Positions 1,097 through 36,687 of a DNA stretch of 64,000 nucleotides are shown here, piece after piece. Numbering within the stretch: position 1 is the first letter of the stretch; each line of letters opens with the position of its first letter. The notes under the pieces were generated by a model, which was not told where the DNA came from, made no database searches, and was given only the letters and a program-made list of their open reading frames with translations. Location of the stretch: positions 2,232,001-2,296,000 of the forward strand of contig NZ_CP044218.1 of NCBI RefSeq assembly GCF_008727715.1. The letters run 5' to 3'. The stretch is from Mesorhizobium terrae (GTDB taxonomy: Bacteria; Pseudomonadota; Alphaproteobacteria; Rhizobiales; Rhizobiaceae). The position numbers and the translations under genes are program-made.

Positions 1097-1112
1097 CTGA
1101 ACATTCATTCAA
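1097..1112. promoter_or_regulatory. TetR-type operator, site A
   Basis: CTGAACATTCATTCAA is an imperfect inverted repeat of form YTGAA-N6-TTCAA, about 83 bases upstream of the methyltransferase start. The same pattern with the same spacing occurs at 28528-28543 and 36669-36684. Its position in front of the operon that carries the TetR gene suggests autoregulation. Binding is inferred, not shown. Confidence 0.55.
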
Positions 1113-1143
1113 TATGAACAGGGCGGGTCGGGCCGTGGCATCT

Positions 1144-1178
1144 TCGGCAGTCGGCAGTCGGCAGTCGGCAGTCGGCAG
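1144..1178. repeat. Five tandem copies of a 7-bp unit (TCGGCAG)
   Basis: Five perfect head-to-tail copies of TCGGCAG lie between the divergent methyltransferase operon and the small gene at 1244. They are non-coding in the chosen annotation. Such a short perfect array is prone to slippage and could alter the spacing of promoter elements for the downstream gene. Confidence 0.9.
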
Positions 1179-1243
1179 CGCCGTGTCGTTCTGGCATGAT
1201 GCCGGCGCCGGTCGGTGGGGCGGGCGCTCGCGAGGTGGATCTG

Positions 1244-1483
1244 ATGACGGAAGCCGAGGACGCCGAGGCGCTGGAACAATGGGCGCTGGTCAACACGCCG
1301 CTCGGCGAAGCCTGGTCGGGCCGCGCCCGCTACGCGGCGGCGATGTATTTCTACAAGCGCGGCGAGATGGATGCCGAGACGCTCGAAGTCTACCGCATCT
1401 GCTCCCGGCTCGACGCCGAGGACCCGCTGGCGATCATCCGCGATCGTAAGGTGGGCAAGGCGTGGCTGGAGCGGATGGGTTGA
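1244..1483 (+). CDS. Small conserved hypothetical protein (79 aa)
   Basis: A short acidic and tyrosine-rich protein beginning MTEAEDAEALEQWALV. I chose ATG 1244 because GAGG lies 8 bases upstream; an earlier ATG at 1196 would add 16 residues of low-complexity sequence with no ribosome site. The codon usage is typical of the window and the frame is cleanly closed. There are no membrane segments or recognisable catalytic motifs. The function is unknown to me. A 216-bp repeat element follows directly after its stop. Confidence 0.6.
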   Translation: MTEAEDAEALEQWALVNTPLGEAWSGRARYAAAMYFYKRGEMDAETLEVYRICSRLDAEDPLAIIRDRKVGKAWLERMG

Positions 1484-1490
1484 GGGGGGT

Positions 1491-1706
1491 CTTCCTTCTC
1501 CCCTTGCGGGAGAAGGTGGATCGGCGCGTAGCGCCGAGACGGATGAGGGGTGTTGGCCGGAGCGCAGCTTTGCAGGATGAGGTGTCGTTGAATTGAGGCG
1601 CTGGTTCTGAAGCGCCTCGTTTCTTCCAGCACCCCTCATCCGACCTCGCCCGCGGCGGCTTTGCCGCCGGGGCTCGGCCACCTTCTCCCACAAGGGGAGA
1701 AGGAAG
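1491..1706. repeat. Intergenic palindromic element E1 (RIME/MITE-like, 216 bp)
   Basis: The element starts CTTCCTTCTCCCC and ends with the inverse, GGGGAGAAGGAAG, so it has long terminal inverted repeats. Each end folds on its own into a hairpin followed by a second GC-rich hairpin and the motif GGATGAGGGGTGTTGG or its inverse. The central 80 bases are not palindromic. That centre matches, in reverse orientation, the centre of the element at 7694-7901. It lies between two convergent genes, as such elements usually do. It resembles rhizobial intergenic mosaic elements (RIME); it encodes nothing. Confidence 0.88.
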
Positions 1707-1713
1707 CGGCGCA

Positions 1714-2781
1714 TCACCCGATCGACTTTTCCAGCACGCGCAGCCAGTTGCGGTAGGCGATCTTTTCGATGAGGGCGCGGCCATAGCCGTGCTTGGCCAG
1801 CGCGTCGGTGAGCCTGGGCAGGCCGGCGGCGTCGCCGATGGTGGCCGGGATCATGGCGCCGTCGAAATCCGAACCCAGGCCGACGCGATCCTCGCCCAGC
1901 GCCTTCAACAGCGCATCGATGTGGCGCACCATCACCTCCAGCGGCGTGTCGGCATTCATGCGGCCGTCCTCGCGCAGGAAGCCGGTGGCGTAGTTCAGGC
2001 CGACCATGCCGTCGCTGTCCTTGATGGCGCCGAGCTGCCACTCGGTCAGGTTGCGCGAATGCGGACACAACGCGTGCACGTTGGAATGGGTGGCGACCAG
2101 CGGCGCATCGGAAAGCCTGGCGACGTCGCGGAAGCCTTTTTCGTTGAGGTGGGACAGGTCGATCATGATCTTCAGCCTGTTGCAGGCCTTGACCAGCGCC
2201 TTGCCGGCATCGGTCAGCCCGTCGCCGGTGTCGGGCGAGGACGGGAAGCGGAACGGCACGCCATGACCGAAGGCGTTCGGGCGGCTCCAGACGATGCCCA
2301 GCGAGCGCAGGCCGGCGGCGTGCAGCACGTCGAGCATGACGAGGTCGGTGTCGATCGCCTCGACGCCCTCGATGTGGAAGACCGCGGCCATCGTGTTCCT
2401 GGCCATCGCTGCGCGGATGTCGGCGGCGCTGCGGCAGATGGCGAGGGCGCCGGCCCGTTCGAGCCGGAGCAGGATCGAGGCCATGGCGAGCGTGCTTTCC
2501 TGCGCGACCGAACGCGGCAGTTCCGGCGGCAGCGGCTCGTTGTCGCTTGGCAACGAGATGACGCCGTCGTCCTTGGCCTTGCGCTCTTCCTGCGGCGGCG
2601 GGAAGATGGCGAACATGCCGCCGATCAGGCCGCCCTTCCTGGCGCGCGGCAGGTCGATGTGCCAGCTGGCCGGCGACCCTTCGATGAACAGCTTTTCGAC
2701 ATCGGACTGGCCGGACTGGTAGAGCTTGAGCAGCGTGTCATTGTGGCCGTCGAAGACGGGGATCAGGTCGGTCTCGGTCAT
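1714..2781 (-). CDS. Membrane dipeptidase-family (M19) peptidase
   Basis: A 355-residue renal-dipeptidase-type metallohydrolase. The N-terminal zinc motif is FDGHNDTLLK (H-x-D); further metal ligands are expected in HIEGVEA, DLSHLNEKGF and ATHSNVHAL, and GLGSDFDGA is the conserved C-terminal motif. The family cleaves dipeptides or related amides, and some bacterial members act on D-amino-acid dipeptides or proline-containing compounds; the exact substrate is not visible. There is no signal peptide, so a cytoplasmic location is likely. It is divergent from matB across a 151-base gap holding a perfect 16-bp palindrome. Confidence 0.93.
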   Translation of the reverse strand: MTETDLIPVFDGHNDTLLKLYQSGQSDVEKLFIEGSPASWHIDLPRARKGGLIGGMFAIFPPPQEERKAKDDGVISLPSDNEPLPPELPRSVAQESTLAMASILLRLERAGALAICRSAADIRAAMARNTMAAVFHIEGVEAIDTDLVMLDVLHAAGLRSLGIVWSRPNAFGHGVPFRFPSSPDTGDGLTDAGKALVKACNRLKIMIDLSHLNEKGFRDVARLSDAPLVATHSNVHALCPHSRNLTEWQLGAIKDSDGMVGLNYATGFLREDGRMNADTPLEVMVRHIDALLKALGEDRVGLGSDFDGAMIPATIGDAAGLPRLTDALAKHGYGRALIEKIAYRNWLRVLEKSIG

Positions 2782-2815
2782 GATGGGCTTTCGATGTTGG
2801 GAAGCGGAGCTGACC

Positions 2816-2831
2816 CGCCCTAATTAGGGCG
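2816..2831. promoter_or_regulatory. Perfect 16-bp palindrome between divergent dipeptidase and matB genes
   Basis: CGCCCTAATTAGGGCG is fully self-complementary. It lies about 35 bases upstream of the dipeptidase start and about 100 bases upstream of matB, a position suited to a dimeric repressor. No regulator gene is adjacent, so the binding protein is unknown. Confidence 0.45.
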
Positions 2832-2932
2832 CGGCGCCGCGACAGGCAAATGCCAGAAGGCGACTTGCGCTTGTCACTGGACCCCGGCCATGCTGCAAGG
2901 GCCCGACCCGTTTCGCTTCGCTGGAGACCATC

Positions 2933-4447
2933 TTGGCCAACACGCTCTACGATGCCCTGTTCAAGCCGCATGAAGCGAGCGAGGCCACCTTCCTGCGGCT
3001 GAAGGACGGGTCGACGGTTTCTTATGCCGGCTTCCTCGCGCTGTCGGCGCGGTTTGCCCATGCCATGGCCGAGGCCGGCATTACGCCCGGCGACCGCGTG
3101 GCGCTGCAGGCCAGGAAATCGGTGGAAGCGCTGGCCGTCTACGCGGCGGCGGTGCGCATGGGCGCGGTGTTCCTGCCGCTGAACACCGCCTATACGGCCG
3201 CCGAGGTCGACTATTTCGTCAGCGATGCCGGCGCGAAACTGCTGATCTGCGACAGTGCAAGCGAAGCGGCGCTGCGGTCGGTGGCCGACAAAGCGGGTGC
3301 TGTGCTGATGACGCTTAGTGGCGACGGGTCCGGCACGCTGAAGGACAGGGCGCAAGGCAAGCCCGCGACCTTCGCCCCGGCTGAACGTGGGCCGGACGAT
3401 CTCGCCGCCTTCCTCTACACCTCCGGCACCACCGGGCGCTCCAAGGGCGCGATGCTGACGCACGACAATCTGCTCTCCAATGCCGAGGCGCTGGTCGATA
3501 CGTGGCGTTTCACCAAGGACGACGTGCTGTTGCACGCCTTGCCGATCTTCCACACGCACGGCTTGTTCGTGGCGACCAACGTCATTTTGCTCGCCGGCGG
3601 CTCGGCGGTCTTCCTGCCCGGCCTCGACCTGGACGACCTTGTCGCCAACATGCCGGTGGCGACGACGATGATGGGCGTGCCCACCTTCTATACGAGGTTG
3701 CTGGCCGACCCCCGGCTGACGCACGAGCTTGTCGCCCATATGCGCCTGTTCGTTTCCGGCAGCGCGCCGCTGCTTGCCGAGACGCACCGCGACTTCGAGG
3801 CGCGTACGGGCAAACGCATTCTCGAACGCTACGGCATGACCGAGACCAACATGAACACCTCGAACCCCTATGAGGGCGAGCGCCGCGCCGGCACTGTCGG
3901 CCAGCCGCTGCCGGGCGTCTCCGTCCGCATCGCCGACCCGGACACCGGCAAGCCCGTGGCTGCGGGCGGCATCGGCGTCATCGAGGTGAAGGGCCGCAAT
4001 GTCTTCAAGGGCTACTGGAACATGCCGGAAAAGACCGCGCAGGAGTTTCGGGTCGACGGCTATTTCATCACCGGCGATCTCGCCACGCAGGATGCTGACG
4101 GCTACGTCACCATCGTCGGCCGCGCCAAGGACCTGATCATCGCCGGCGGCTACAACATCTATCCGAAGGAAATCGAGCTTCTGCTGGACGAGATACCCGG
4201 CGTCGAGGAATCGGCGGTGGTCGGCGTGCCGCATCCCGACCTCGGCGAGGGCGTCGTCGGCATCGTCACCGCGCGCAAGGGCACGACGCTGGACGAGGCT
4301 ACCCTGCTTGCCGGATTGTCGACGAAGCTTGCCCGCTTCAAGCAGCCGCGCCGCATCTTCGTGGTCGACGAATTGCCGCGCAACACGATGGGCAAGGTGC
4401 AGAAGAATTTGTTGCGCGAACGGTTCGCCGGGACGTTCAAAGGATAG
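2933..4447 (+). CDS. matB: Malonyl-CoA synthetase (malonate-CoA ligase), ANL superfamily
   Basis: A 504-residue acyl-CoA ligase that activates malonate with ATP and CoA. The P-loop-like A3 motif YTSGTTGRSKGAML is at about residues 162-175, the A5 motif RYGMTETNM near residue 300, and the hinge/A8 region GRAKDLIIAGGYNIYPKEIE near residue 397; the catalytic lysine is in PRNTMGKVQKN near the C-terminus. Overall similarity, including the GAVFLPLNTAYT segment, is to rhizobial MatB. The start is TTG at 2933 with GGAG 6-7 bases upstream; no better ATG exists. No matA or matC neighbour is present, so it probably acts alone to supply malonyl-CoA. Confidence 0.9.
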   Translation: MANTLYDALFKPHEASEATFLRLKDGSTVSYAGFLALSARFAHAMAEAGITPGDRVALQARKSVEALAVYAAAVRMGAVFLPLNTAYTAAEVDYFVSDAGAKLLICDSASEAALRSVADKAGAVLMTLSGDGSGTLKDRAQGKPATFAPAERGPDDLAAFLYTSGTTGRSKGAMLTHDNLLSNAEALVDTWRFTKDDVLLHALPIFHTHGLFVATNVILLAGGSAVFLPGLDLDDLVANMPVATTMMGVPTFYTRLLADPRLTHELVAHMRLFVSGSAPLLAETHRDFEARTGKRILERYGMTETNMNTSNPYEGERRAGTVGQPLPGVSVRIADPDTGKPVAAGGIGVIEVKGRNVFKGYWNMPEKTAQEFRVDGYFITGDLATQDADGYVTIVGRAKDLIIAGGYNIYPKEIELLLDEIPGVEESAVVGVPHPDLGEGVVGIVTARKGTTLDEATLLAGLSTKLARFKQPRRIFVVDELPRNTMGKVQKNLLRERFAGTFKG

Positions 4448-4457
4448 ATCGGAAAAT

Positions 4458-4665
4458 CGTCATCCCGGAAGCCGGAGCGCAGCGAAGGCTATCCGGGATC
4501 CATTGGTCGCAAGCCGTCGGGCGCGGCCGGGTCCTCGCCTTGAACATTCGCGTCGCCGAACCCACGCTGCACGTTTCACGAAGGCTGACCCAAACCTAGA
4601 TCCCGGCCGCGCTGCTCAATAGGCTCCGGGTCTGCGCTCGCTTTGCTCGCTTGCCCGGAATGACG
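4458..4665. repeat. Intergenic repeat element F1 (208 bp, CGTCAT...ATGACG termini)
   Basis: The element is bounded by CGTCATCCCGG and CCCGGAATGACG, inverted relative to each other. Its interior matches the two copies at 17292-17469 and 17538-17739 in reverse orientation, including GGTTCCGGGTCTGCGCTCGC-like ends and the GCGCGGCCGGGTCCTCG-type centre. It fills the gap between convergent matB and phaR and contains no gene. Confidence 0.8.
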
Positions 4666-4726
4666 GAGCGAGAACTTCGCGCCATGCCATCCACATGGCA
4701 ATCGCGAACCTGCCCCGTCTCGTCAC

Positions 4727-5353
4727 CTACGAAAGCTTGTCCAGCTTGCGCTGCATGGCGGCGATCTGTTCCTTCAGTTCCTGCAGATCGTCGGTCTTTT
4801 CGGCCGGCTCCGCCTTGGCGGGTTCGGCTCTGGCCGGCTCGGCGGCCGTGCTCGAGGCACCGCCCGTCGCAGCCCCGGGGAAGGGCGTGAACATGCGCAT
4901 GGCGTTCTGGAACATTTCCATGTTGCGCCGTGTCTGTTCCTCCAGCGCCTTCATCGGCGTCGCCAACTTCATCATGTCCATCGGCGATTTGCCGAGCGAC
5001 GATTTCATCTGTTCGCGGAAGCGCTCCTGCTCCTTGGAGAAGGCGAGCATCGACTGTTCGAGGAATGACGGCACGATCATCTGCATCTGGTCGCCATAGA
5101 AGGCGATGAGCTGGCGCAGGAACGGAATGGGCAGCATGTTCTGCCCGTCCTTGTTCTCCAGCTCGAAGATGATCTGGGTGAGAACCGGGTGGGTGATGTC
5201 GTCGCCGGTCTTGGCGTCCTGCACGGTGAAGTCCTCGCCCTTCTTCACCATTTCGGCGAGGTCCTCGAGCGTCACATAGGTGCTGGTGCCCGTGTTGTAG
5301 AGCCGGCGGTTGGCATATTTCTTGATGACCACCGGTTCGTTTTTCGCCGCCAT
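4727..5353 (-). CDS. phaR: Polyhydroxyalkanoate synthesis repressor PhaR
   Basis: A 208-residue protein with the PHB/PHA-accumulation regulator DNA-binding domain at the N-terminus (VIKKYANRRLYNTGTSTYVTL) and the PHB-accumulation domain repeat around residues 60-110 (PFLRQLIAFYGDQMQ). The C-terminal part is a predicted coiled coil after an alanine-rich linker. PhaR represses PHB genes and phasins and is displaced by PHB granules. The GGGAGG ribosome site precedes ATG 5353. It is divergent from phbA, and the shared gap contains a TGC/GCA palindrome that fits a PhaR operator. Confidence 0.95.
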   Translation of the reverse strand: MAAKNEPVVIKKYANRRLYNTGTSTYVTLEDLAEMVKKGEDFTVQDAKTGDDITHPVLTQIIFELENKDGQNMLPIPFLRQLIAFYGDQMQMIVPSFLEQSMLAFSKEQERFREQMKSSLGKSPMDMMKLATPMKALEEQTRRNMEMFQNAMRMFTPFPGAATGGASSTAAEPARAEPAKAEPAEKTDDLQELKEQIAAMQRKLDKLS

Positions 5354-5493
5354 ACAGCATCCTCCCGCGGATACCGGCGGGCCCGTAAGCGGCCGGTAAC
5401 GATTGCTCCCAAGTCGAGGATATGCGCAAAACCGTCATAATTCCAAGCGGTTTGTGCAGTGCGGAAGCTTAGCGGGTTCTTTCGGCGCTGCAA

Positions 5494-5509
5494 TATGCTG
5501 CGCAGCATA
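5494..5509. promoter_or_regulatory. Perfect 16-bp palindrome, probable PhaR operator
   Basis: TATGCTGCGCAGCATA is exactly self-complementary and lies between phaR and phbA, with further TGC/GCA steps on both sides (CTGC at 5489, GCAG at 5516). PhaR of related bacteria is known to prefer TGC-rich inverted sequences, so this is a good candidate for auto- and phbAB regulation. Confidence 0.6.
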
Positions 5510-5632
5510 ACTTACGCAGCCGCCGGGTCGCCCAGTGGGTGCCGATTTCCAGTTTGACTCAAGGGCTGGAACCGGCAAGAAAAGTCGAACGCAAAGCTTG
5601 CAAACCGTTCAAATAGAAGTCTGGAGAACAAT

Positions 5633-6817: not shown

Positions 6818-6823
6818 TCGAAA

Positions 6824-7680: not shown

Positions 7681-7693
7681 GGGTAGAGCTTTA

Positions 7694-18800: not shown

Positions 18801-18801
18801 T

Positions 18802-25438: not shown

Positions 25439-25448
25439 TCCCTCGAAA

Positions 25449-26567
25449 CTAATCCGCCATCGCCACCAGCGCGTCGCGGTCGTAGCCGAGGCGGATGGTG
25501 GCGCCGACCGGAATGTCGTCGGCGCCGAAATCATTGGTCTCGGTCACCGACAGCGGCTTTTCCAGTCCGGGGATGTCGACGATCAGGTGGGTGATCTCGC
25601 CGAAATAGTGCCGCTCCACCACGCTGCCCGACACTTCGTATTTGGCGGTTGCCTGGTCCCACAGAACGCGCAGCCGTTCCGGCCGGATGCCGAGCGTGGC
25701 GGCGGCGCCGTTGCGCACGAAAGCCTTCGGCTTTTCGGTGGTGACGCGGCCGAAGCCCAGCGTGTCGACGGTGATGGAAGAGCCGTTTTCCTCGACGATC
25801 TCGGCCTTGACGAAATTCATGCCGCCAAGGAAGTCGGCGACCTGGCGGTTCACCGGCCGCTGGTAGATTTCCTTCGGCGAGGCGACCTGGGCGATGCGGC
25901 CGCCGAACATGACGGCAATGCGGTCCGACATGGCGAGCGCCTCGTACTGGTCGTGGGTGACCAGGATGAAGGTGATGCCGACTGCCTGCTGCAGCCGGCG
26001 CAGTTCCACCTGCATCTGTTCGCGCAGCTTCTTGTCGAGCGCCGACAGCGGCTCGTCGAGCAAGAGAACCTTGGGCCGCATCACCAGGGCGCGGGCGAGC
26101 GCCACGCGCTGGCGCTGGCCACCGGACAATTCATGCGCGCCGCGTTTGCCGAGGCCAGTCAGCGAGACCATGGCCAGTGCTTCGTCGACCCGCCGCTTCT
26201 CCTCGCCCTGGTCGAGCTTCAGCCGCTTCAGCCCGTAGCCGACATTCTGCTCGACATTGAGATGCGGGAAGATGGCGTAGCTCTGGAACACCATGTTGGT
26301 GGGGCGCCGGTTGGCCGGCACGCCGACCATCTCCTGGCCATCGACGACGATGGTGCCTGAGGTCGGGTTGTCGAAACCGGCGATCATTCTGAGCAGGGTG
26401 GTCTTGCCGCAGCCGGAAGGCCCGAGCAGGGAAAAGAACTCGCCCTCGCGAATGGTCACGGTGGCGTCGTCCAGAGCCTTGAAGGCCCCGTAGTTGCGGG
26501 TGACGCCCCTGATCTCGATCATCGGCCGCTCGGAGGCGCTGCGTTCGGATTGCGGCCGGTCAAGCAT
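25449..26567 (-). CDS. ABC transporter ATP-binding subunit, PotA/spermidine-putrescine type
   Basis: A 372-residue ATPase. Walker A is GPSGCGKTT, the signature is LSGGQRQRVALARAL, and Walker B is LLLDEPLSALD. A TOBE domain occupies the C-terminal 100 residues, as in PotA and other CUT1/polyamine/opine importers. The start overlaps the end of the upstream permease gene by 8 bases. It is the last gene of a three-gene operon with two permeases; no binding protein is in the operon. Confidence 0.95.
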   Translation of the reverse strand: MLDRPQSERSASERPMIEIRGVTRNYGAFKALDDATVTIREGEFFSLLGPSGCGKTTLLRMIAGFDNPTSGTIVVDGQEMVGVPANRRPTNMVFQSYAIFPHLNVEQNVGYGLKRLKLDQGEEKRRVDEALAMVSLTGLGKRGAHELSGGQRQRVALARALVMRPKVLLLDEPLSALDKKLREQMQVELRRLQQAVGITFILVTHDQYEALAMSDRIAVMFGGRIAQVASPKEIYQRPVNRQVADFLGGMNFVKAEIVEENGSSITVDTLGFGRVTTEKPKAFVRNGAAATLGIRPERLRVLWDQATAKYEVSGSVVERHYFGEITHLIVDIPGLEKPLSVTETNDFGADDIPVGATIRLGYDRDALVAMAD

Positions 26568-27390
26568 GCAGGAGACCCTCGGACTGGGTGCGCCGGGCGG
26601 CGCGGCGGCGCAGGATTTCGGCGATGGAAAGAAGCACGAAGGAACCGACCAGAAGCAGCGTGCCGAGCGCCAGCACGCCGGGCAGCTTGGCGGCGAAGCG
26701 CAACTGGCCCCAGATGTAGATCGGCAGCGTCGCGTCGGTTCCGGTGAGGAAGAAGGCGATGATGAACTCGTCGAGCGAAATGGTGAAGGAAACCAGCAGG
26801 CTGGAGATGATGGCCGGCGTCACCATCGGCAAGGTCACGCGCCGGAAGGTGCCGAAGGCGCTCTCGCCGAGATCGGCCGAGGCTTCCTCCAGGCTGCGGT
26901 CGAAGCCTTCGAAGCCGGATGTCAGCACGGTCATCGAATAGGGGATGCAGACCAGCACGTGGCCGAGCACGACGGTGAACAGCGACAGGCTGAGGCCGAG
27001 CTGCAGCATCACCAAAAGCATGGAGATGGCGACGATCACTTCGGGCAGCACCAGCGGCGCCATGATCAGGCCATGGATGGGCCGGCGGGCGGGGAAACGA
27101 TAGCGGGTGATGGCGCGCGCGGCGAGGATGCCGAGAACGGTGGACAGCACCGCGGCCGAGACACCGACGATCAGGCTGTTCCAGGCCGCATCGATGAGGG
27201 CCGGCGTCTTCGGCAGATCGCGATACCATTGCAGCGTATAGCCGGAGAGCGGGAATTTGGGCGAGGCCGAGATGTTGATCGAGAAGATCGGCAGGAACAG
27301 CACCGGCAGGTACAGGAAGCCGACATAGAGCACGGCATAGGCCGTAAGCCAGGAGCTGCCGCTGGGCAGGAAGCGCTTGAGGGTACTCAT
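26560..27390 (-). CDS. ABC transporter permease, PotC-like
   Basis: A 276-residue membrane protein with six predicted helices. The cytoplasmic EAA loop is EEASADLGESAFGTFRRVTLP, the contact to the ATPase. LSGYTLQWYRDL near the N-terminus is typical of PotC-type permeases. The start codon overlaps the upstream permease stop by 4 bases, indicating translational coupling. Confidence 0.93.
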   Translation of the reverse strand: MSTLKRFLPSGSSWLTAYAVLYVGFLYLPVLFLPIFSINISASPKFPLSGYTLQWYRDLPKTPALIDAAWNSLIVGVSAAVLSTVLGILAARAITRYRFPARRPIHGLIMAPLVLPEVIVAISMLLVMLQLGLSLSLFTVVLGHVLVCIPYSMTVLTSGFEGFDRSLEEASADLGESAFGTFRRVTLPMVTPAIISSLLVSFTISLDEFIIAFFLTGTDATLPIYIWGQLRFAAKLPGVLALGTLLLVGSFVLLSIAEILRRRAARRTQSEGLLHA

Positions 27391-28304
27391 CGCGCCAACC
27401 TCGCGGCGGTGCGGATCAGGAAGACGGCAGCGCCCGCCATCAGGCTGACCACGACCATGGTGGTGACGGAAAGCGCGGCGCCCAGCGGCCAGTTCGCCGC
27501 TTTGCCGAACTGCGCCTGGATGGCGTTGGCGATCATGACGCCGTCCTTGCCGCCGACCAGCTTCGGAGTGACGTAGTCGCCAACCGTCGGGATCATGACG
27601 ATGAGCAGCGCCGAGATGACACCGGGCGCCGACAGCGGCAGCGTCACGCGCAGGAAGGAGCGCAGCGGCCCGTCGCCGAGATCCTTGGCCGCCTCGATCA
27701 GCGTGCGGTCGACTTTTTCGAGCGACACGAAGATGGGCAGGATGGCGAAGGCCGCCCAGGCGTGGGTCAGCGTGATGACGACGGCGCTGGTGTTGTAGAG
27801 CAGGGCGGTGGATGGCTCGCTGATCAGGCCGAGCCCCATCAGGCCGGAATTGAGGACGCCGTTGTAGCCGAGGATGACCTTCCACGACATCACCCGCAGC
27901 AGGTAGCTGGTCCAGAACGGGATGGTGATGAGGAACAGCCATAGGCCCTTGTGGCGGCCGCCGTGGAAGGAAATGAAATAGGCGATCGGATAGGCGAGCA
28001 CGACGGTGAACAGCGACACCATCAATGAGACGTAGAGCGAGCGCCACAACAGGTCGAGATAGATCGGCTCGGTCAGCGCGATGCGGTAATTCTCGAGCGT
28101 GAAGGTGTGGTCGATGGTGAGGTAGTGCTGCGTCCAGAAGGAATGGGCGAACACCACCAGGATCGGCACAACCAGAAGGATGAGGGCGTAAAGAAAAGTC
28201 GGGCTGATCAGGGCAAGGCCCTGGGCGGATTCGGATTGCAGAAGCGTCTTTCGTCTGATGCCGCCCGCGACCAGCGGCGGCGACCCTTCCGCGGCTGCCG
28301 TCAT
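27387..28304 (-). CDS. ABC transporter permease, PotB-like
   Basis: A 305-residue permease, first gene of the operon. About six helices; the EAA loop is IEAAKDLGDGPLRSFLRVTLP. The segment LWLFLITIPFWTSYLLRVMSW is characteristic of PotB-type proteins. ATG 28304 was chosen because the sequence upstream is not conserved in type. Only transport genes follow; the substrate-binding protein must be encoded elsewhere. Confidence 0.93.
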   Translation of the reverse strand: MTAAAEGSPPLVAGGIRRKTLLQSESAQGLALISPTFLYALILLVVPILVVFAHSFWTQHYLTIDHTFTLENYRIALTEPIYLDLLWRSLYVSLMVSLFTVVLAYPIAYFISFHGGRHKGLWLFLITIPFWTSYLLRVMSWKVILGYNGVLNSGLMGLGLISEPSTALLYNTSAVVITLTHAWAAFAILPIFVSLEKVDRTLIEAAKDLGDGPLRSFLRVTLPLSAPGVISALLIVMIPTVGDYVTPKLVGGKDGVMIANAIQAQFGKAANWPLGAALSVTTMVVVSLMAGAAVFLIRTAARLAR

Positions 28305-28629
28305 TGCGGCGCTCCGGGCAGCGCTCCAAGCGCATATGCGGTCGCTGGCCTGGATTGTCCCGCCATGCTGCCTTCCCATCAAGCGCCGGCTTGTTCCCAA
28401 TCTTCTGTTTCGAGCCGCTCCGTGCCTGCGTTTTCACGCACAGGAGCGAGCGGCTCTCGTCTTGCCGGCTTCCTTCATCATGAGCGCATCCACCGATTGA
28501 AATCAAGCGGTATTTCTGCGATATTGATTGAACGACCATTCAAAATCATGTGAAGAAATCCGGATTTTCCAATGGTTTGAGTGTCTTGTTGAGGCGAACG
28601 TCACTTTGAGGATCGAAAGCGAGGCGAAG
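28305..28629. other. Divergent promoter region, ABC operon / aminotransferase
   Basis: These 325 bases have no gene. An AT-rich patch (28495-28560) holds the TetR-type operator at 28528-28543. The region probably carries both promoters. Confidence 0.5.
28528..28543. promoter_or_regulatory. TetR-type operator, site B
   Basis: TTGAACGACCATTCAA, arms TTGAA/TTCAA with a 6-base spacer, about 100 bases upstream of the aminotransferase start. It matches sites A (1097-1112) and C (36669-36684) in arms, spacing and in the CATTCAA half. Confidence 0.6.
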
Positions 28630-30048
28630 ATGGCTGCGGTGCGGCAAGCAAGAACGGGCGGAGGGGATGCCGAGGCCGGGCAGGATGCGGTGGAGACGGC
28701 GCGGCGCCATCTCGTGCAGCCGTGGCCGATGGCGGGTTCGGTCGGCGCCGAGGCGCGGGCGCTGATCGGCGAAGGCGACGGCATCTACATCACCGACGGC
28801 AACGGCAAGCGGCTGATCGACGGGCCGGCCGGCATGTGGTGCATCAATGTCGGCCATCGCCGCGAGGAACTGGCCAAGGTGATGTACGACCAGGCGATGC
28901 AGCTCTCCTACAACACGCCCTGGTACACGATGAACGCGCCTTCGGCCGAACTCGCGCGGCGTATCGCGGACCATGCGCCGGGCGATCTCAGCCACGTCTT
29001 CTACACCACCGGCGGCTCCTCGGCGGTGGAGACGGCGCTGCGCTTCATGCAGTTCTACAACAATGTGCGCGGCCGGCCGGAGAAGAAGCTCATCCTGTCG
29101 CGCGGCGGCGCCTATCACGGGTCGACCTACCTGGCGGCCTCGCTCAACGGCCGGCCGCGCGACCGCGACTGGATGGACGGCGCCGACGATCTGGTGGTGA
29201 AGCTGTCGTCGCCCGATCCGTTCCGCCGGCCGAAGGGCATGGATGTCGCGGCCTTCGCCGACATGCTGGTCGCGGAATTCCGCGACAGGATCGCGGAGAT
29301 CGGCGCCGAAAGGATCGGCGCCTTTGTCGGCGAGCCGGTGCAGGCCTCGGGCGGCGTCATCCTGCCGCCGGACGGCTACCTGAAACGCATCCGCGCCATC
29401 TGCCGCGACAACGACATTCTCTTCATTTCCGACGAGGTGGTGACCGCCTTTGGCCGGCTCGGCCATGTCTTTGCCTCGGGTGAGGTGTTCGGCATCGACC
29501 CCGACATGATCACCTTCGCCAAGGGCGTCACCTCGGGTTATTTCCCGCTGGGCGGCGTCGTCATCTCGGAGCGTTTGCTGGAGGAATTGCGCCGCTCCAA
29601 CCATCCCGACGCGATGTTCGCGCATGGGCTGACCTATACCAGTCACCCGGTCGGCTGCGCGGTGGCGCTCAAAAACCTCGACATATTGGAAGACGAGGTG
29701 CTGGCGCATGCGCGTGCGGTCGCGCCTTATTTCCAGGCGCGCCTGAAGACGCTGGAGGAACTGCCGCTGGTGGGCGAAGTGCGCGGCTTAGGGCTGATGG
29801 CCTGCGTGGAATGCGTGGCCGACCGCGAAAGCAAAAACCCGCTGCAGCTCGACCGGGCGGTCGGTGTGCGCATCGACGCGCATTGCCATGAGCTCGGCCT
29901 TCTGGTGCGGCCGCTGATCAATATGTGCGTGATGTCGCCGCCGCTCACCATCAGCCGCGAGCAGATCGACGACATGGTGGCGATTCTGCGCGAGGGCATT
30001 TCGCGGACGATGGAGGATCTGCGCCGGGAAGGGCTGTGGCAAGGCTGA
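28630..30048 (+). CDS. Class III aminotransferase (PLP-dependent)
   Basis: A 472-residue omega-amino acid/polyamine-type aminotransferase. The PLP site is in FAKGVTSGYFPLG (catalytic Lys); the metal/PLP contact FISDEVVTAFGRLG and HGLTYTSHPVGCA are conserved. Candidates are putrescine-pyruvate, beta-alanine or related amine substrates; the divergent Pot-type importer favours an amine. ATG 28630 has GAGG 6 bases upstream; an in-frame ATG at 28528 falls inside the operator and is rejected. Confidence 0.92.
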   Translation: MAAVRQARTGGGDAEAGQDAVETARRHLVQPWPMAGSVGAEARALIGEGDGIYITDGNGKRLIDGPAGMWCINVGHRREELAKVMYDQAMQLSYNTPWYTMNAPSAELARRIADHAPGDLSHVFYTTGGSSAVETALRFMQFYNNVRGRPEKKLILSRGGAYHGSTYLAASLNGRPRDRDWMDGADDLVVKLSSPDPFRRPKGMDVAAFADMLVAEFRDRIAEIGAERIGAFVGEPVQASGGVILPPDGYLKRIRAICRDNDILFISDEVVTAFGRLGHVFASGEVFGIDPDMITFAKGVTSGYFPLGGVVISERLLEELRRSNHPDAMFAHGLTYTSHPVGCAVALKNLDILEDEVLAHARAVAPYFQARLKTLEELPLVGEVRGLGLMACVECVADRESKNPLQLDRAVGVRIDAHCHELGLLVRPLINMCVMSPPLTISREQIDDMVAILREGISRTMEDLRREGLWQG

Positions 30049-30208: not shown

Positions 30209-30979
30209 ATGAAACTCGGCTTCATCGGCACAGGCGCGCTTACGGCCGCGATCGTCGCCGGGCTGAAATCGGTCGCCGACAATTCGGTGTCGGTCGTGCT
30301 GTCGCCGCGCAATGAGGAAATCGCGGCCGGGCTGGCGGCCCGCTATGCCGACGTGCGCATCGCGGCCGACAATCAGGCGGTGCTCGACGATTGCGATACC
30401 GTCATGCTGGCGGTGCGGCCGCAGATCGCGCATGAAGTGCTGCCGGCGCTGCGGTTTCGTTCCGACCATCGCGTCGTCAGCCTGATCGCGACGCTGTCGG
30501 TCGAAGAGGTGGCCGGCCTGATCGGGCCGGTGGCAACGGTGACGAAGGCGCTTCCGATGCCGATGATCGCGCACAGGCAAGGCGCGACCATCCTGTTTCC
30601 GCCGGATCCCGCCATGGCGGCTTTTTTCGGCCGGCTGGGCAAGGCGATCGAGGTTACCGACGCTGACGAGTTCAACGCGCTGAGCGTCGTCACCGCGACC
30701 TATGCCAGCTACTTCAAATATCTCGATACGATCCACAGCTGGCTGGAGGGCCATCAGGTGTCGGGCGAGAAGGCGCGCGATTATATCGCCACGCTGTTCA
30801 AGGCGCTGGCCAACGCGCCGGACAGGGCCCCGGACGCCGGTTTCATGCATCTGGCGCAGGAATACGCGACCCGCGGCGGCATCAACGAACAGGTCCTGCG
30901 CGAACTGACGGAGCGGGACATGTTCGGCGCCTTCGCGCAAAGCCTGGAAGGTATCTACCGGCGCATCTCAAAGTCATAA
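30209..30979 (+). CDS. Pyrroline-5-carboxylate reductase-like (ProC family) oxidoreductase
   Basis: A 256-residue Rossmann enzyme. The cofactor motif is KLGFIGTGALTAAI; VMLAVRPQIAHEVL and PMPMIAHRQGATILFPP correspond to ProC motifs. Divergence from housekeeping ProC in the C-terminal dimer domain suggests a catabolic paralogue acting on a cyclic imine. It follows the aminotransferase on the same strand after 160 bases, so an amine to aldehyde/imine to cyclic amino acid route is possible. Confidence 0.8.
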   Translation: MKLGFIGTGALTAAIVAGLKSVADNSVSVVLSPRNEEIAAGLAARYADVRIAADNQAVLDDCDTVMLAVRPQIAHEVLPALRFRSDHRVVSLIATLSVEEVAGLIGPVATVTKALPMPMIAHRQGATILFPPDPAMAAFFGRLGKAIEVTDADEFNALSVVTATYASYFKYLDTIHSWLEGHQVSGEKARDYIATLFKALANAPDRAPDAGFMHLAQEYATRGGINEQVLRELTERDMFGAFAQSLEGIYRRISKS

Positions 30980-31007
30980 GCCGGCAAGCGAGGACGCGCC
31001 CGGCCGG

Positions 31008-31898
31008 TCAGGCCGCCGGTTCCTCGACGGTGGCACTCTTGTTGTGCCACAGCAGGATAAGCCCGGCGAAGACGATCAGGCTGGCGCCGGCGATGGTGGC
31101 AGGGCCGGGCACTTCGTGGAAGGCGAGATAGCCGATGAGCGCGGCGCCGACCAGTTCGAGATAGACCAATGGTGCCAGCACCGAGGTTTCGGCGAGGCGG
31201 AAGGCGATGATCAGCATCAGATGGCCAATCAGCGAGAAGATGCCGAGCCCGGCGAAGAAGACGAGATCGCCCCAGGCCGGCGTCGACCAGGTGAGCAGCG
31301 CCTGCGGCATCAACAGCACGGCGCCCAACGCGCATTGAAAGGCGAGCGTCTTGACCGGGTCGCTTTCCAGCGCCGCCTTGCGGGTGACGATCATGTAGCA
31401 GGCGAAGGCAAGGCCGGAAGCCAGCGCCAGCAGGATGCCGGGTTCCATCGTGCCAACGCCCGGCCGCAGGATGACCATGGCGCCGGCGAAACCGAGCGCC
31501 AGGCTGATGCCCTTGCGCGTCGTCATGCGTTCGCCCAGCACGACGACCGACAGCACCATGGCGACGACCGGGGCGACGAAATAGGCGCTGATGGCGGTAG
31601 CCAGCGGGATGTGGGAGATGGCGACGAAATATAGCGACATCGCCGTCACCAGAAGCACGGTGCGCAAGATATGCGCGCCGAGGCGCTCGGCCGGAAACAG
31701 ATGCCGGCCATGGCGTGCGAAGGCATAAGGCAGGACGATGATCGAAGCCGCTGCATAACGCGCCCAGCCGATGAACAGCGGCGAATAGTCAGCGCTCAGA
31801 TATTTCGCCAGCCCGTCGACGATCTGGATGGCGAACGCCACCGCGGCCATCAGGATGATGCCTCGGGTCTGCGGGGAAAGGCCGGTGGGTGCCGTCAT
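31008..31898 (-). CDS. EamA-family (DMT) transporter
   Basis: A 296-residue protein with ten predicted membrane helices in two EamA repeats. The first repeat has SADYSPLFIGWARYAAASIIVLPYA in part, the second ends HEVPGPATIAGASLIVFAGL. It is probably a metabolite exporter. It is convergent with the reductase gene. Confidence 0.9.
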   Translation of the reverse strand: MTAPTGLSPQTRGIILMAAVAFAIQIVDGLAKYLSADYSPLFIGWARYAAASIIVLPYAFARHGRHLFPAERLGAHILRTVLLVTAMSLYFVAISHIPLATAISAYFVAPVVAMVLSVVVLGERMTTRKGISLALGFAGAMVILRPGVGTMEPGILLALASGLAFACYMIVTRKAALESDPVKTLAFQCALGAVLLMPQALLTWSTPAWGDLVFFAGLGIFSLIGHLMLIIAFRLAETSVLAPLVYLELVGAALIGYLAFHEVPGPATIAGASLIVFAGLILLWHNKSATVEEPAA

Positions 31899-31980
31899 GG
31901 CGGGCTTCTAGCGCGAAGCCCTGCTCCGATACAGCCAAACAGGTTGATCCAGTCGGTCGCGATTTGCGACAGCAGGTCGG

Positions 31981-32017
31981 GCGCCAAACTTCTCCCGCGA
32001 GGAGAGAAGATTGGCGC
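31981..32017 (-). terminator. Long hairpin at the 3' end of the PhyH gene
   Basis: GCGCCAAACTTCTC (31981-31994) pairs with GAGAAGATTGGCGC (32004-32017), 14 base pairs with one mismatch, just past the dioxygenase stop. The centre resembles an E-element end. No clear T-run exists. Confidence 0.55.
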
Positions 32018-32023
32018 TTGATT

Positions 32024-32956
32024 TCACCACTGCGCCAGCCCCAGCAGCTTTTCGCCGAGCGGGGTCAGCTTTGCCGTGGCGGCGTTGTGCTTTTCCCAGT
32101 CGCGCGGATCGCCCGGGAAGGCGTCGCGTCGCGGATGGTCGAGTTCGCGCCACAAGCGGATGCGTTCCTGGCGCTCGGTTTCGTTGGTCCATTCGGCCGG
32201 GTGCATGGAGATGTATTGCGCCATGCGGACCCGGTTGTCGGAATGGTTGGGGCGCACGCCATGGGCCAACAGCGAGTTGAAGATCATCAAGTCACCGGCT
32301 TCCATCTCGATGTTGACGGTCGCCTGGCCGGTCATGTCGGGATGCATCGGGTCGCGGTCGGGCGCTTGCGTTTTCTCCCAGGCATCGAAACCGGAGAAGA
32401 GCGAAGGCACGCACTGGAAGCCGCCGACGTCGCCGTCCTGCTTCTGCAAGCTGAGCACGCCCTGCACGCCGATCGGCAGGGGACGGATCGAGGTATCGAC
32501 ATCCCAATGGATGAAGCCGTTGGGATTGCCCTTGACCTTCCTGGGCGGGTTGAGATTGGCGCGGTCGATCGTCACCCACAAATCCTCGCGGTCCCAGATG
32601 TCGACGAAGGCGTCGTAGATGCGCCGCTCCATGCGATTGTCCCAGAGATACTGGTGATTGTAGATTTCCAGCATGCCGGTGTTGTTGAGTTCCTTCATCT
32701 TGTGCTCGCGCCGCTGCGGCGCATACCAGGTGGAAGGATCTGCGGGGTCCTTCTCGTCGAAGCGCCAGAGCAGATCGACGAGGTTGTCGACATTCTCAGG
32801 TGGCACCGCCTGGCGCACGATGACATAGCCATTGCTGATCCAGTGCTGCCAGTCGTCCTCGGAGAGGACGCGCAGCGGCAGTGTCTTCCGGATGTCTCGC
32901 AATTGCGTCGTCATGCCAGTGGTGGGGTGGTGGTCTCTGACAGTCGCTGCTTGCAT
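32024..32956 (-). CDS. PhyH-type Fe(II)/2-oxoglutarate dioxygenase
   Basis: A 310-residue phytanoyl-CoA dioxygenase-family enzyme. The iron triad fits GFIHWDVDTS (H-x-D) and LLAHGVRPNHSDNRVR (distal His, with Arg for 2-oxoglutarate). GGGAG precedes ATG 32956 at 6 bases. It is divergent from an AraC gene by 130 bases. The family hydroxylates small molecules; the substrate is unknown. Confidence 0.88.
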   Translation of the reverse strand: MQAATVRDHHPTTGMTTQLRDIRKTLPLRVLSEDDWQHWISNGYVIVRQAVPPENVDNLVDLLWRFDEKDPADPSTWYAPQRREHKMKELNNTGMLEIYNHQYLWDNRMERRIYDAFVDIWDREDLWVTIDRANLNPPRKVKGNPNGFIHWDVDTSIRPLPIGVQGVLSLQKQDGDVGGFQCVPSLFSGFDAWEKTQAPDRDPMHPDMTGQATVNIEMEAGDLMIFNSLLAHGVRPNHSDNRVRMAQYISMHPAEWTNETERQERIRLWRELDHPRRDAFPGDPRDWEKHNAATAKLTPLGEKLLGLAQW

Positions 32957-33086
32957 GATGATCTCCCTGGATGATGCCGCGCGACGCGGTGCATGCAGCC
33001 AAGAATAGGGACCGTGCGGCCACGATGTTGTCGCGCTTCGGCCAATTCTGGTACTATTGCAGCGTTTCTGGAATCAACGACGCCAT

Positions 33087-33947
33087 ATGAAGCCCTATCT
33101 TGAACGCGTGCCAGCCAGTCCGGATAGTTCCTGGAGTATGCTGAACCGGCGGCTCGACGACGGCATTCCGTTCCAGTGGCACCATCACCCCGAGCTCGAA
33201 CTGACGCTGACGCTGAACTCGCGCGGCCACCGCTTCATCGGCGACCATGTCGGCAGTTTCGACGGCATCGACCTGGTGCTTGTCGGCCCCAACCTGCCCC
33301 ACACATGGTCGTCGTCGGAGAGGCTCGATCCGGCCCTCCCGCATGTCGCGCTGGTTATCTGGTTCCGGCAGGAGTGGATTGAGACGATCACCCGTTCGTC
33401 GGTGGAATTCGGCGCGGTGGCGGCGCTCGTCGCCAGGGCCGGCGCCGGCTTGCGCTTTTCGACAGCCGCCGCGATGGCGCTGGCCGACGATTTCGGCCGG
33501 CTGTTCGATCTGCCGGCGCCGCAACGGCTGCTGGCCATGCTGGGCATCCTCGGCCAACTGGCGGAAGACGCGGATGCCGTCGCGTTGTCCAGCGAAGCCT
33601 TCGCGCCCGTGGAACGGGATGCGGGCGCGGAACGCATCGACCGTGTGTTGACCCATATTCACCAGTTCTATGCCGAGGAAATCCGGCTGGACGATCTTGC
33701 CGATGTCGCCGCCCTCAGCGTGTCGGGAACCCACCGGCTGTTCAGCCGGCACATGCGTACGACGATTTCGGAATACATCATCCGCCTGCGCATCGGCGAT
33801 GCCTGCGCGCGGCTGTCGGCAACCGGCCAGCCGATCCAGCATATCGCGAGTGCGGTCGGCTATGGCTCGCTCGCCAACTTCAACCGCCAGTTCCGGCGGC
33901 TGCGGGGCATGTCTCCGCGGGACTACCGGGCGCGGTTCCGGCTTTAG
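33087..33947 (+). CDS. AraC-family regulator
   Basis: A 286-residue regulator with an N-terminal cupin (FQWHHHPELELTLTLNSRG) and C-terminal AraC DNA-binding domain (EIRLDDLADVAALSVSGTHRLF; AVGYGSLANFNRQFRRLRGMSPRDYR). The start at ATG 33087 (MKPYLERVP) removes 10 unlikely residues. It probably activates the divergent dioxygenase gene. Confidence 0.92.
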   Translation: MKPYLERVPASPDSSWSMLNRRLDDGIPFQWHHHPELELTLTLNSRGHRFIGDHVGSFDGIDLVLVGPNLPHTWSSSERLDPALPHVALVIWFRQEWIETITRSSVEFGAVAALVARAGAGLRFSTAAAMALADDFGRLFDLPAPQRLLAMLGILGQLAEDADAVALSSEAFAPVERDAGAERIDRVLTHIHQFYAEEIRLDDLADVAALSVSGTHRLFSRHMRTTISEYIIRLRIGDACARLSATGQPIQHIASAVGYGSLANFNRQFRRLRGMSPRDYRARFRL

Positions 33948-33982
33948 CGGCCGTCACGCGGGAGCCGGCCGGGCAGAGCGCC

Positions 33983-34846
33983 TCAGTGCACCGTCGTGCC
34001 CACATGCCTGAGCTTATCAGGGTTCCTGACGACGTAGATCGCGTGGATGCAGCCGTCGTCGATTTCCAGTGCAGTGGTCTGGAGGATGTTGCCGCGCTCG
34101 ATGGTGACGAAGCCCGGTAGGCCGTTGATCACACCATAACGAAGCAGGCGCGACGGTTCCTCGGCAAAAACAGGCGCGAACCGCGCGAAGAAATGCAGGA
34201 CGTTGTCGAGGCCGGTGAGCGGTTTCTTGCCGGCCGGCGCCTTGCCGCCGCCATCGGCGTATAGCGTCACATCCGCCGCGAGCAAGGTGCGCAGCCTCTC
34301 CATTTCGCCATCTCGGGATGCGGCGAGGAAAGCTCGCGCGATCTCGAAGCCATGTTGCTTCGGCACGAGGTAGCGCGGGCGGTCGGCGCGAACATGGATG
34401 CGCGCCCGGCGCGCCAGCTGGCGACAAGCCGTGGGCTCGCGGCCGATCGTCGCCGCGACCTCCTCATAGCCGAGGCCGAACACATCGTGCAGCAGGAAGG
34501 CTGCACGCTCGAGCGGCGACAGCCGCTCCAACGCCATCAAAAGCGGCAAGGTGACGGTGTCGACCTCCTGGTCGACCTCCTCCACCACCGGTTCCGGCAG
34601 CCAGGGACCGACATAGGTCTCGCGCCGGCGCCGGATGGCCTTGAGCCGGTCCAGGCACAGACGCATGACGACCCGACGCAGGAAGGCCTCAGGTTCGTTA
34701 ACTTCCCGGCGTTCGGTGCCCAGCCAGCGCACGAATGCATCCTGGACGGCGTCTTCGGCATCGGCGACGGAACCCAACATGCGGTAGGCGACACGAAAGA
34801 GAACCGGCCGCAGCGGATCGAAGATGGCGGTGGCGTCCTTGTCCAT
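33983..34846 (-). CDS. ECF41-type (SigJ-like) sigma factor
   Basis: A 287-residue ECF sigma factor. Region 2 is LFRVAYRMLGSVADAEDAVQDAFVRW, region 4 LSPLERAAFLLHDVFGLGYEEVA, followed by a SnoaL-like C-terminal domain with the family signature YADGGGKAPA. In ECF41 the C-terminal domain takes the place of an anti-sigma factor. It follows an AhpD-like gene by 10 bases; the promoter upstream of that gene carries the ECF41 recognition pattern, so the pair is probably self-activated. Confidence 0.93.
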   Translation of the reverse strand: MDKDATAIFDPLRPVLFRVAYRMLGSVADAEDAVQDAFVRWLGTERREVNEPEAFLRRVVMRLCLDRLKAIRRRRETYVGPWLPEPVVEEVDQEVDTVTLPLLMALERLSPLERAAFLLHDVFGLGYEEVAATIGREPTACRQLARRARIHVRADRPRYLVPKQHGFEIARAFLAASRDGEMERLRTLLAADVTLYADGGGKAPAGKKPLTGLDNVLHFFARFAPVFAEEPSRLLRYGVINGLPGFVTIERGNILQTTALEIDDGCIHAIYVVRNPDKLRHVGTTVH

Positions 34847-34856
34847 GCCGGTATCG

Positions 34857-35315
34857 TCAGGCAGCCTTTTTCGCTTCGGCCGGGTGAACGCGGCGGAAGC
34901 CGATGTTGATGCGGTTCCACGCGTTGGTCAACGCAATCAGCAGCGACAGTTTCACCTGCTCGGCCTCGTTGAACTGTGCTTGCAGGGTTTTGTAGGCGTC
35001 GTTCGGCGCATGGGTCTGGGACACAAGTGTCAGGGCTTCGGTCCATTCCAGCGCTGCCCGCTCGCGGGCGGAATAGAGCGTGGATTCGCGCCAGGCACTC
35101 AGAAGATGAAGGCGGTCCTCCGATTCACCCTGTTTGCGCGCGTCTTCAACGTGATGGTGGATGCAGAAGGTGCAGCCATTGATCTGTGCCGCCCGCGTCA
35201 TCACCAGTTCCTTCAGCAAGGGTTCCAGCTCGTCATCCTGGATGGTTTTGCCAATCTCGATCCAGGGCTTCATAGCCGCGGGGTTGGCGGTAAAGGGGTT
35301 CGGCCTTTGTGCCAT
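34857..35315 (-). CDS. AhpD-like carboxymuconolactone decarboxylase-family protein
   Basis: A 152-residue AhpD-fold protein with the redox motif INGCTFCIHHHVEDAR (C-x-x-C-x-x-x-H) after a conserved Glu. Such proteins are peroxide-reducing or thiol-disulfide partners. It is the typical target gene of ECF41 sigma factors (carboxymuconolactone decarboxylase / oxidoreductase / epimerase). ATG 35315 (MAQRPNPF) is chosen because it follows the promoter found at 35346-35372. Confidence 0.92.
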   Translation of the reverse strand: MAQRPNPFTANPAAMKPWIEIGKTIQDDELEPLLKELVMTRAAQINGCTFCIHHHVEDARKQGESEDRLHLLSAWRESTLYSARERAALEWTEALTLVSQTHAPNDAYKTLQAQFNEAEQVKLSLLIALTNAWNRINIGFRRVHPAEAKKAA

Positions 35316-35345
35316 AGTCGTCTCCTGTCGCAATCGTACAGACAT

Positions 35346-35372
35346 GACGACCGGCTGCCGCGTTTTGTGACA
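35346..35372 (-). promoter_or_regulatory. ECF41-dependent promoter
   Basis: Read on the minus strand: TGTCACA (35372-35366), 16 bases, CGTC (35349-35346). This is the -35/-10 pattern known for ECF41 sigma factors, 31 bases upstream of the AhpD-like start. Confidence 0.85.
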
Positions 35373-35449
35373 TGCGGCGTGACCTTTTTCGCCCAAGGGA
35401 CGCTTATCGACGACAGGCCGCGGCACTGGAAGATGGCACGGCCGGGCGG

Positions 35450-36652
35450 CTATGCCTGGCTGAGCAGCGCGTCGTTGAGGGCTGCCATGTCCTTCTCGTC
35501 CGGCTGGATTTTCAGGGACAGCACCGGCAGGCGCGCCCGCATATGGTCGTGATGGGTGCGCACGCCATATTCGAGGTCGGACAGGTAGAAGCCGGCGAAG
35601 GCTTCCGACTGCATGGATTCGTTCGACCAGACGGAAAGCTGCACGTCCTCGGCCATGGTGTCGCGGTCGATGCGGAAGGCGAGATAACGCGCCGCCGCCT
35701 GTTCGCGGCTTTCCTCGGCGTGGCGGTAGATGGCGCCGCGCAGCAGGGTCTCGCCGGTCGAGAGCGGGAACTCCTGGTAGAACTGCACGGATTCCGGCGT
35801 CACCGCGATCACCGCATTGGGGAAGATGCCGTAATAGATCCAGGCCTTCTTCAGCATGTCGGGCAGATGCGCCGGCTCGGGTGCGATGGCGACGTAGTTC
35901 TTCACGCTCCAGCGGCGGCCGGCATGCGGATTGTAGGTGGCGAAGGAGCGCGAGACGCCATTGACGAAGGGTTCGTCGTAGTAGGTCGAGCCGTAGAGGT
36001 CCTGCAGCGCCGGATGCGCCATGGCGACGTGATAGCCTTCATTGTCGACGTCGCGTACCGACTTCCAGTTGACCGGGCTTTTCTGGGTCCAGATGCCCCA
36101 GGACGGCACCATGTCGGCAGCACAATAGGGCGCGATCTCGGCCTCGATCGGCTTCAAGAGTTCCGCCACCGAAGGCTGCGGTCCACCGTCGCGGAAGCGG
36201 ATGAAGATAAAACCCATCCAGATTTCGAGGTCGAGCGGCCTCAGCCCGAACTCGGTCTTGTCGAGTTCGGGGAAGGAGCGCGGGCGGGCGGCGCCGCGCA
36301 GGGTGCCGTCGAGATTGTAGACCCAGCCATGGAAAGGGCAGACCAGCGCGTTGGCGCAATGGCCCTGGCTGTCGGCCACCACGCGGCTGCCGCGATGCCG
36401 GCACAGATTGTGGAAACCGCGCACGACGCCGTCCTTGCCGCGCACGATGAGCGCGCGCTCGCCGATGACATCCATGGTCAGATAGTCGCCGGGGTTTGGC
36501 ATGTCGGAGACATGGCCGGCGATCTGCCAGTGGGTGCGGAACAGATGCTGCTTTTCCAGTTCCAGAAACGCATCCGAGTGATAGCTCCAGCCGGGCAGGC
36601 CCTTGCGATCCCAGTCATTGGGGACGGCTACGTCGCGGATATGCGGGTTCAT
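35450..36652 (-). CDS. Rieske non-haem iron oxygenase, large subunit
   Basis: A 400-residue ring-hydroxylating-type oxygenase. The Rieske [2Fe-2S] motif is CRHRG ... CPFHGW. The iron site fits NEGYHVAMAH, with the downstream Asp in the helical domain. Related enzymes demethylate glycine betaine, stachydrine or carnitine, but the substrate cannot be read directly. No reductase gene is adjacent. A TetR-type operator lies between base 14 and 35 upstream of the ATG; no good ribosome site is seen. Confidence 0.92.
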   Translation of the reverse strand: MNPHIRDVAVPNDWDRKGLPGWSYHSDAFLELEKQHLFRTHWQIAGHVSDMPNPGDYLTMDVIGERALIVRGKDGVVRGFHNLCRHRGSRVVADSQGHCANALVCPFHGWVYNLDGTLRGAARPRSFPELDKTEFGLRPLDLEIWMGFIFIRFRDGGPQPSVAELLKPIEAEIAPYCAADMVPSWGIWTQKSPVNWKSVRDVDNEGYHVAMAHPALQDLYGSTYYDEPFVNGVSRSFATYNPHAGRRWSVKNYVAIAPEPAHLPDMLKKAWIYYGIFPNAVIAVTPESVQFYQEFPLSTGETLLRGAIYRHAEESREQAAARYLAFRIDRDTMAEDVQLSVWSNESMQSEAFAGFYLSDLEYGVRTHHDHMRARLPVLSLKIQPDEKDMAALNDALLSQA

Positions 36653-36665
36653 GGAGAGAGCTTTC

Positions 36666-36687
36666 TTATTGAATATTCATTCAATAA
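36666..36687. promoter_or_regulatory. TetR-type operator, site C
   Basis: Perfect 9-base arms TTATTGAAT and ATTCAATAA around ATTC. The core TTGAATATTCATTCAA (36669-36684) aligns with sites A and B. Position directly upstream of the Rieske ATG indicates repression by promoter occlusion. Confidence 0.65.

Follow-up and report, generated by a model that had tools for sequence, protein, structure and literature searches.

The described systems closest to the locus analysed here are the BetI family of choline repressors, the Rieske N-demethylating oxygenases of the carnitine monooxygenase (CntA) type and the spermidine/putrescine importer PotABCD. In Ruegeria pomeroyi, as far as the excerpt of the published report used here extends (PMC12442346), the BetI1 box reads ATTGACG*CGTCAAT, the bet cluster is split with a distant betB still under BetI1 control, and the boxes of BetI2 share AAACTTGAAC. 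Glycine betaine can be demethylated by a pfam06253 methyltransferase together with a separate cobalamin protein, according to the part of PMC12478193 on which this account draws. A search of an open literature library gave no paper recognised as describing the gene cluster considered below.

The window, i.e. the whole 64-kb stretch of DNA that was analysed (C2:2232001-2296000 of the 6.02-Mb genome), resembles the BetI family in having a BetI-type TetR regulator with the C-terminal domain TetR_C_6 and a palindromic box at the promoters of both its own and separate operons, and one half of this box is like that of BetI2 through AAACTTGAAC (PMC12442346, same excerpt). It differs from that family in that the regulator scores 125.5 bits on the BetI equivalog model TIGR03384, against a cut-off of 201.3, and in that the box is TTGA-N8-TCAA (TTGAAY-N4-RTTCAA) instead of ATTGACG*CGTCAAT. 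The neighbours also differ, being Pot, Rieske, FAD and aminotransferase genes. From sequence comparison, we consider it highly probable that the BetI-like TetR whose gene lies at the left edge of the window is a repressor with these sites as its operators, and that it controls the uptake, N-demethylation and transamination of a methylated amine.

Regulator and neighbouring genes

The gene context given in the first-pass annotation, with a Methyltransf_11 gene followed by tetR, PotABC opposite a class III aminotransferase, and a Rieske oxygenase, was found as stated (Table 1). The complete tetR frame, taken from the genome, spans L016:4473-5192 (C2:2231473-2232192), and translation likely starts at residue 8 of this frame, since the starts of relatives point there. 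The earlier description of the protein as BetI-like is correct as to type, but it is no canonical BetI: it misses the TIGR03384 cut-off, and a true BetI, scoring 250.4 bits on this model, is encoded elsewhere in the genome (C2:5519.8 kb). The cut-off of NF001978 (PRK00767) is only just reached (123.1 versus 118 bits), which is probably why many close relatives, among the best 120 of 2706, are called ‘transcriptional regulator BetI’ in the public records, a name that is likely wrong for their function.

The Rieske oxygenase contains both the Rieske motif and the iron-ligand motif. Among solved chains, those closest to it belong to carnitine monooxygenase (6y9c, 6y8j), the CntA type, and to a Rieske demethylase (4qup). 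Unlike GbcA, it remains below the cut-off of NF058607, the GbcA equivalog model (135.1 versus 670 bits), and the genes recognised in the cluster include none for a reductase. All four component types of a PotABCD importer are present, including a PotD-like binding protein, whereas the PotB, PotC and PotD equivalog models are matched below their cut-offs; the substrate of this importer probably differs from spermidine/putrescine. The other proteins of the cluster are FAD1 and FAD2, both CrtO-like, a GcvT-like protein and an amine oxidase.

Table 1. Features of the window, with positions counted from its first nucleotide
Feature	Position	Strand	Basis
BetI-like TetR regulator, N-terminal part	1..171	-	TetR_N and TetR_C_6; gene runs past the window edge (L016:4473-5171)
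SAM methyltransferase gene (Methyltransf_11), first in the tetR operon	199..1014	-	Domain; near-full homolog in 65/80 loci of relatives
Operator site 1 (site A, methyltransferase-tetR side)	1097..1112		Putative; pattern match; TTGAATGAATGTTCAG on the minus strand
79-aa conserved gene, remnant of a FAD1-FAD2-GcvT operon	1244..1483	+	Directly 3' of GcvT in 70/70 loci of relatives with both
PotA-like ABC ATPase	25449..26567	-	TIGR01187, 361.8 versus cut-off 355.6 bits
PotC-like permease	26560..27390	-	PotC equivalog model match, below cut-off
PotB-like permease	27387..28304	-	PotB equivalog model match, below cut-off
Promoter-like TTGAAA-17-GATATT before the aminotransferase	28497..28525	+	End 2 nt ahead of the operator; scan 1 found versus 0.1 expected
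Operator site 2 (site B)	28528..28543		Putative; pattern match and conserved in relatives
Class III aminotransferase	28630..30048	+	PF00202; NF005447, 725.6 versus cut-off 618 bits
Rieske oxygenase alpha subunit	35450..36652	-	Rieske and Ring_hydroxyl_A; nearest solved chain 6y9c, carnitine monooxygenase, E 1e-33
Operator site 3 (site C)	36666..36687 (core 36669-36684)		Putative; perfect 9-base arms and conserved in relatives
Weak promoter-like CTCACA-18-TAAAAT before the Rieske gene	36694..36723	-	Scan 1 found versus 0.3 expected

Putative operators in the window and the genome

Throughout the 64-kb window, YTGAA-N6-TTCAA occurs only at the three places reported earlier (sites 1 to 3, five strand matches), while 100 shuffled windows gave a mean of 0.12 and a largest count of 2. 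The CATTCAA half common to all three sites and the perfect 9-base arms of site 3 were likewise recovered. Hundreds of equal sites in the genome, which the first-pass annotation had named as an outcome speaking against a regulon, were not what a scan of the 6.02 Mb returned: the loose pattern lies at 15 places, and the stricter TTGAAY-N4-RTTCAA at three exact ones, namely sites 2 and 3 and C2:142926-142941, each before genes of this set. The latter sits 2.1 Mb away, before FAD1-FAD2-GcvT genes, and the count of three operator places thus holds for the window but becomes four in total. Site 1 differs from the strict pattern by one base and so belongs to the one-mismatch class, which is uninformative genome-wide (16 places, against 15 for a control pattern read backwards). 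As this control also has two exact matches in the genome, a pattern match alone is weak evidence, and conservation in relatives carries the case.

Promoter-like elements lie beside two of the sites (Table 1), with the TAAAAT before the Rieske gene ending 6 nt ahead of the extended arms and 9 nt ahead of the 16-base box. Both layouts fit steric repression, in which TetR bound 2-9 nt after the -10-like element would block initiation from the promoters of the aminotransferase and of the Rieske gene. The promoter scan found none at site 1, before the methyltransferase, where by inspection the box is 9 nt ahead of a -35-like TTGCGT; at the regulator’s own methyltransferase-tetR promoter, TetR would be placed just upstream of this -35-like element.

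Conservation of the sites and co-occurrence with the regulator

The 80 best loci with a relative of TetR, mostly from Mesorhizobium and totalling 1.6 Mb, were scanned with a slightly widened pattern. This gave 192 matches, of which 74 precede FAD1/methyltransferase-tetR, 69 the aminotransferase and 48 the Rieske gene, with a single one elsewhere, while the reversed control pattern gave none; as the loci are related, these counts are not independent events. The prospect that the sites might not be conserved in related strains, also raised in the first-pass annotation, is thereby removed, 191 of the 192 standing before the same genes. Footprints obtained without conditioning on the site, at most 220 nt from the start and in loci with a near-complete gene and enough upstream DNA, coincide with it in 68/70 upstream regions of FAD1, 68/68 of the aminotransferase and 45/46 of the Rieske gene. 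The site is the best-conserved of 213 16-mers before FAD1 and before the Rieske gene, and ranks only 50th of 213 before the aminotransferase, where it lies within a longer conserved block.

Upstream of tetR itself, a site is present within 1600 nt in 74 of the 80 loci. Among loci from other genomes of the bacterial family it was found in 26/29, the remainder consisting of one locus with a one-base variant, one without a site and one ended by a contig edge. Plasmids of Ensifer, Shinella and Rhizobium each carry three sites around the same genes. On the Fuscovulum plasmid (L145) no main-type box was found, and the best upstream match has three mismatches. One alternative is that the site matches reflect chance similarity, as might be suspected from the one-mismatch counts and from the exact boxes of genomes without TetR described below. 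However, their placement before the same genes is conserved over the 80 loci and in other genera, and chance was rejected on conservation at these positions, leaving it exceedingly improbable.

Across 199 genomes of the bacterial family, TetR was called (E <= 1e-40) in 50 and FAD1 (E <= 1e-180) in 45. All 45 genomes with FAD1 also have TetR, and none of the 149 without TetR has FAD1 (Fisher 2e-39). The exact box occurs in 48/50 genomes with TetR (mean 2.5) versus 76/149 without (mean 1.2), the corresponding means of the control pattern being 0.4 and 0.5. Given that about half of the TetR-less genomes hold an exact box, the box alone is therefore no marker of the regulon.

A group of loci (L083, L100, L102, L109, L112) has a cluster that looks decayed, with short aminotransferase, Rieske or FAD1 fragments; TetR, an M19 dipeptidase and the amine oxidase are kept there, and there is no operator near tetR.

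Recognition helix and candidate binding proteins

The TetR helix-turn-helix, combined with a palindrome that is conserved ahead of both the regulator's own operon and its targets, corresponds to what is expected of a local TetR-family repressor, for which binding and repression are predicted here. To this is added a comparison of recognition helices and boxes in 79 homologs, one of which (L053, at a contig end) was left out of the tally, with classes that were drawn up after the data had been seen. A perfect box of the TTGAAY-N4-RTTCAA type lies within 1100 nt in 34 of 52 homologs with a GIVNFHF-type helix and is absent from the other 18. Three of five GLV-type homologs have YTGAAYTGTCAATCAA, allowing for a single mismatch, and all four SPGIVNFYF homologs have TTAAAT-N3-CATTCAR within about 140 nt (rows read by eye). 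A further 21 homologs belong to neither the GIVNFHF-type nor the GLV-type class, and many distant homologs are without a box. The change of the box with the recognition helix favours the local TetR as the probable binder.

Canonical BetI is itself a BetI-type TetR, and both kinds of site hold TTGA/TCAA halves, so that the sites might instead be bound by the protein encoded at C2:5519.8 kb and the genes be part of a choline/glycine-betaine regulon. However, upstream of canonical betI inspection reveals ATTGA-TTAG-TCAAT (ATTGA-N4-TCAAT), whose half-sites are spaced as in the BetI1 box of R. pomeroyi (PMC12442346, in the excerpt used), while the sites analysed here have the other spacing, TTGA-N8-TCAA. 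They also travel with the local tetR gene and change with the recognition helix of its homologs. Box spacing and co-distribution thus both speak against canonical BetI as the binder, and we regard this explanation as improbable.

Another regulator, neither TetR nor BetI, could also bind the shared box, with tetR being merely one of its targets. The six of 80 tetR loci without a nearby box would agree with this, and TetR as the binder is a prediction from sequence. Yet tetR adjoins the box in most loci, and where the recognition helix of a TetR homolog differs, its box is related but altered, as would not be expected if a separate protein bound it; such a regulator is quite unlikely. The local TetR is consequently retained as the candidate binder, and the earlier proposal of one regulon under the TetR at the window edge gains support from the conserved placement, the unconditioned footprints, the co-occurrence of TetR with FAD1 and the joint change of operator and helix. 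That the regulon is real is very likely; it would represent a new regulator and a box of a familiar kind.

Break-up of the gene cluster

In the 13 loci of relatives that were drawn, the genes and boxes run GcvT-FAD2-FAD1, box, methyltransferase-tetR-SBP-amine oxidase, PotABC, box, aminotransferase, Rieske, box. All core genes stand together in a single complete cluster in 64 of the 80 loci, and in 54 together with the Rieske gene, some loci ending too early for these counts. The three linked loci of the first-pass annotation do share a putative operator, but they are pieces of this cluster that is contiguous in most relatives. In this strain the cluster is broken up, the pieces keeping their putative operators: FAD1-FAD2-GcvT is located 2.1 Mb away with a box of its own, and the 79-aa gene has stayed behind next to site 1. 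In an alignment with one relative, the DNA flanking site 1 towards the methyltransferase is similar to the methyltransferase side in that relative, and the FAD1 start next to the fourth site is similar to its FAD1 side. Most simply, a single divergent operator shared by both sides would have turned into two. The near relatives L062, L064 and L066 likewise have the 79-aa gene and no FAD1-FAD2-GcvT at tetR.

Four tandem copies of CAGTCGG are found at 1148-1175 of the window, between site 1 and the 79-aa gene, and occupy the place where the FAD1-FAD2-GcvT genes of relatives would be. Genes for an F420-type oxidoreductase, EamA, a PhyH-like and a SigJ-like protein (30209-34846) separate the aminotransferase from the Rieske gene in the window, unlike in the relatives drawn, in which the two are near each other.

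The GcvT-like frame of this strain (L017:1436-2653, C2 about 138.4-139.7 kb) contains an in-frame TGA beyond which the likeness continues. Since an internal stop is found in none of 70 GcvT genes of relatives, the pathway may be impaired in this strain, or the TGA may be a sequencing error.

Proposed regulation and pathway

A ligand-free TetR dimer would sit on TTGAAY-N4-RTTCAA and come off on binding its ligand, which is probably either the amine taken up or an intermediate that has lost some of its methyl groups. The regulon would comprise the Pot-type importer, the Rieske oxygenase, the two CrtO-like flavoproteins, the GcvT-like folate protein, the amine oxidase and the class III aminotransferase. 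The compound imported and degraded is probably an N-methylated amine, and the ‘methylated amine or betaine’ suggested in the first-pass annotation fits the predicted enzymes, i.e. a Rieske oxygenase nearest to carnitine monooxygenase, Pot-type uptake, a GcvT-like protein and an aminotransferase. The most economical reading is that the N-methyl groups would be removed successively, the methyl carbon passing to tetrahydrofolate, and that the freed amine would then be transaminated.

More tentatively, a possible though not favoured extension is that an undescribed pathway of many rhizobia takes every N-methyl group off a betaine-type amine and transaminates what is left, the Rieske oxygenase acting first and the two CrtO-like flavoproteins next with the GcvT-like folate protein, under a BetI-derived repressor with a DNA code of its own. 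The break-up of the cluster would then have left an operator on every fragment, doubled in one case where a divergent promoter was split, and one regulator would still join the scattered genes. The locus suggests that many rhizobia have a methylated-amine pathway that is uncharacterised so far. Its regulator goes under the name BetI in databases but probably responds to a different signal, and the DNA code and targets proposed for it here can be put to the test. The strain also illustrates clearly, in a natural case, how operators can persist through the break-up of a gene cluster.

In this strain (L016:404-1957 and L146:11175-12245), the gene next after the amine oxidase encodes an MTTB (pfam06253) methyltransferase and is itself followed by a second PotD-like binding protein. 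MTTB was left out as a core member, since none of the 80 loci of relatives has it. The second binding protein, by contrast, also occurs after the amine oxidase in L064 and L066. The only B12-binding_2 match in the genome (G000:C2:3912942-3913160) lies within a 253-aa open frame that may encode a separate corrinoid protein. In genomes of other families (G202, G234, G235, G283, G315), two TetR homologs are found about 4-11 kb apart on one contig.
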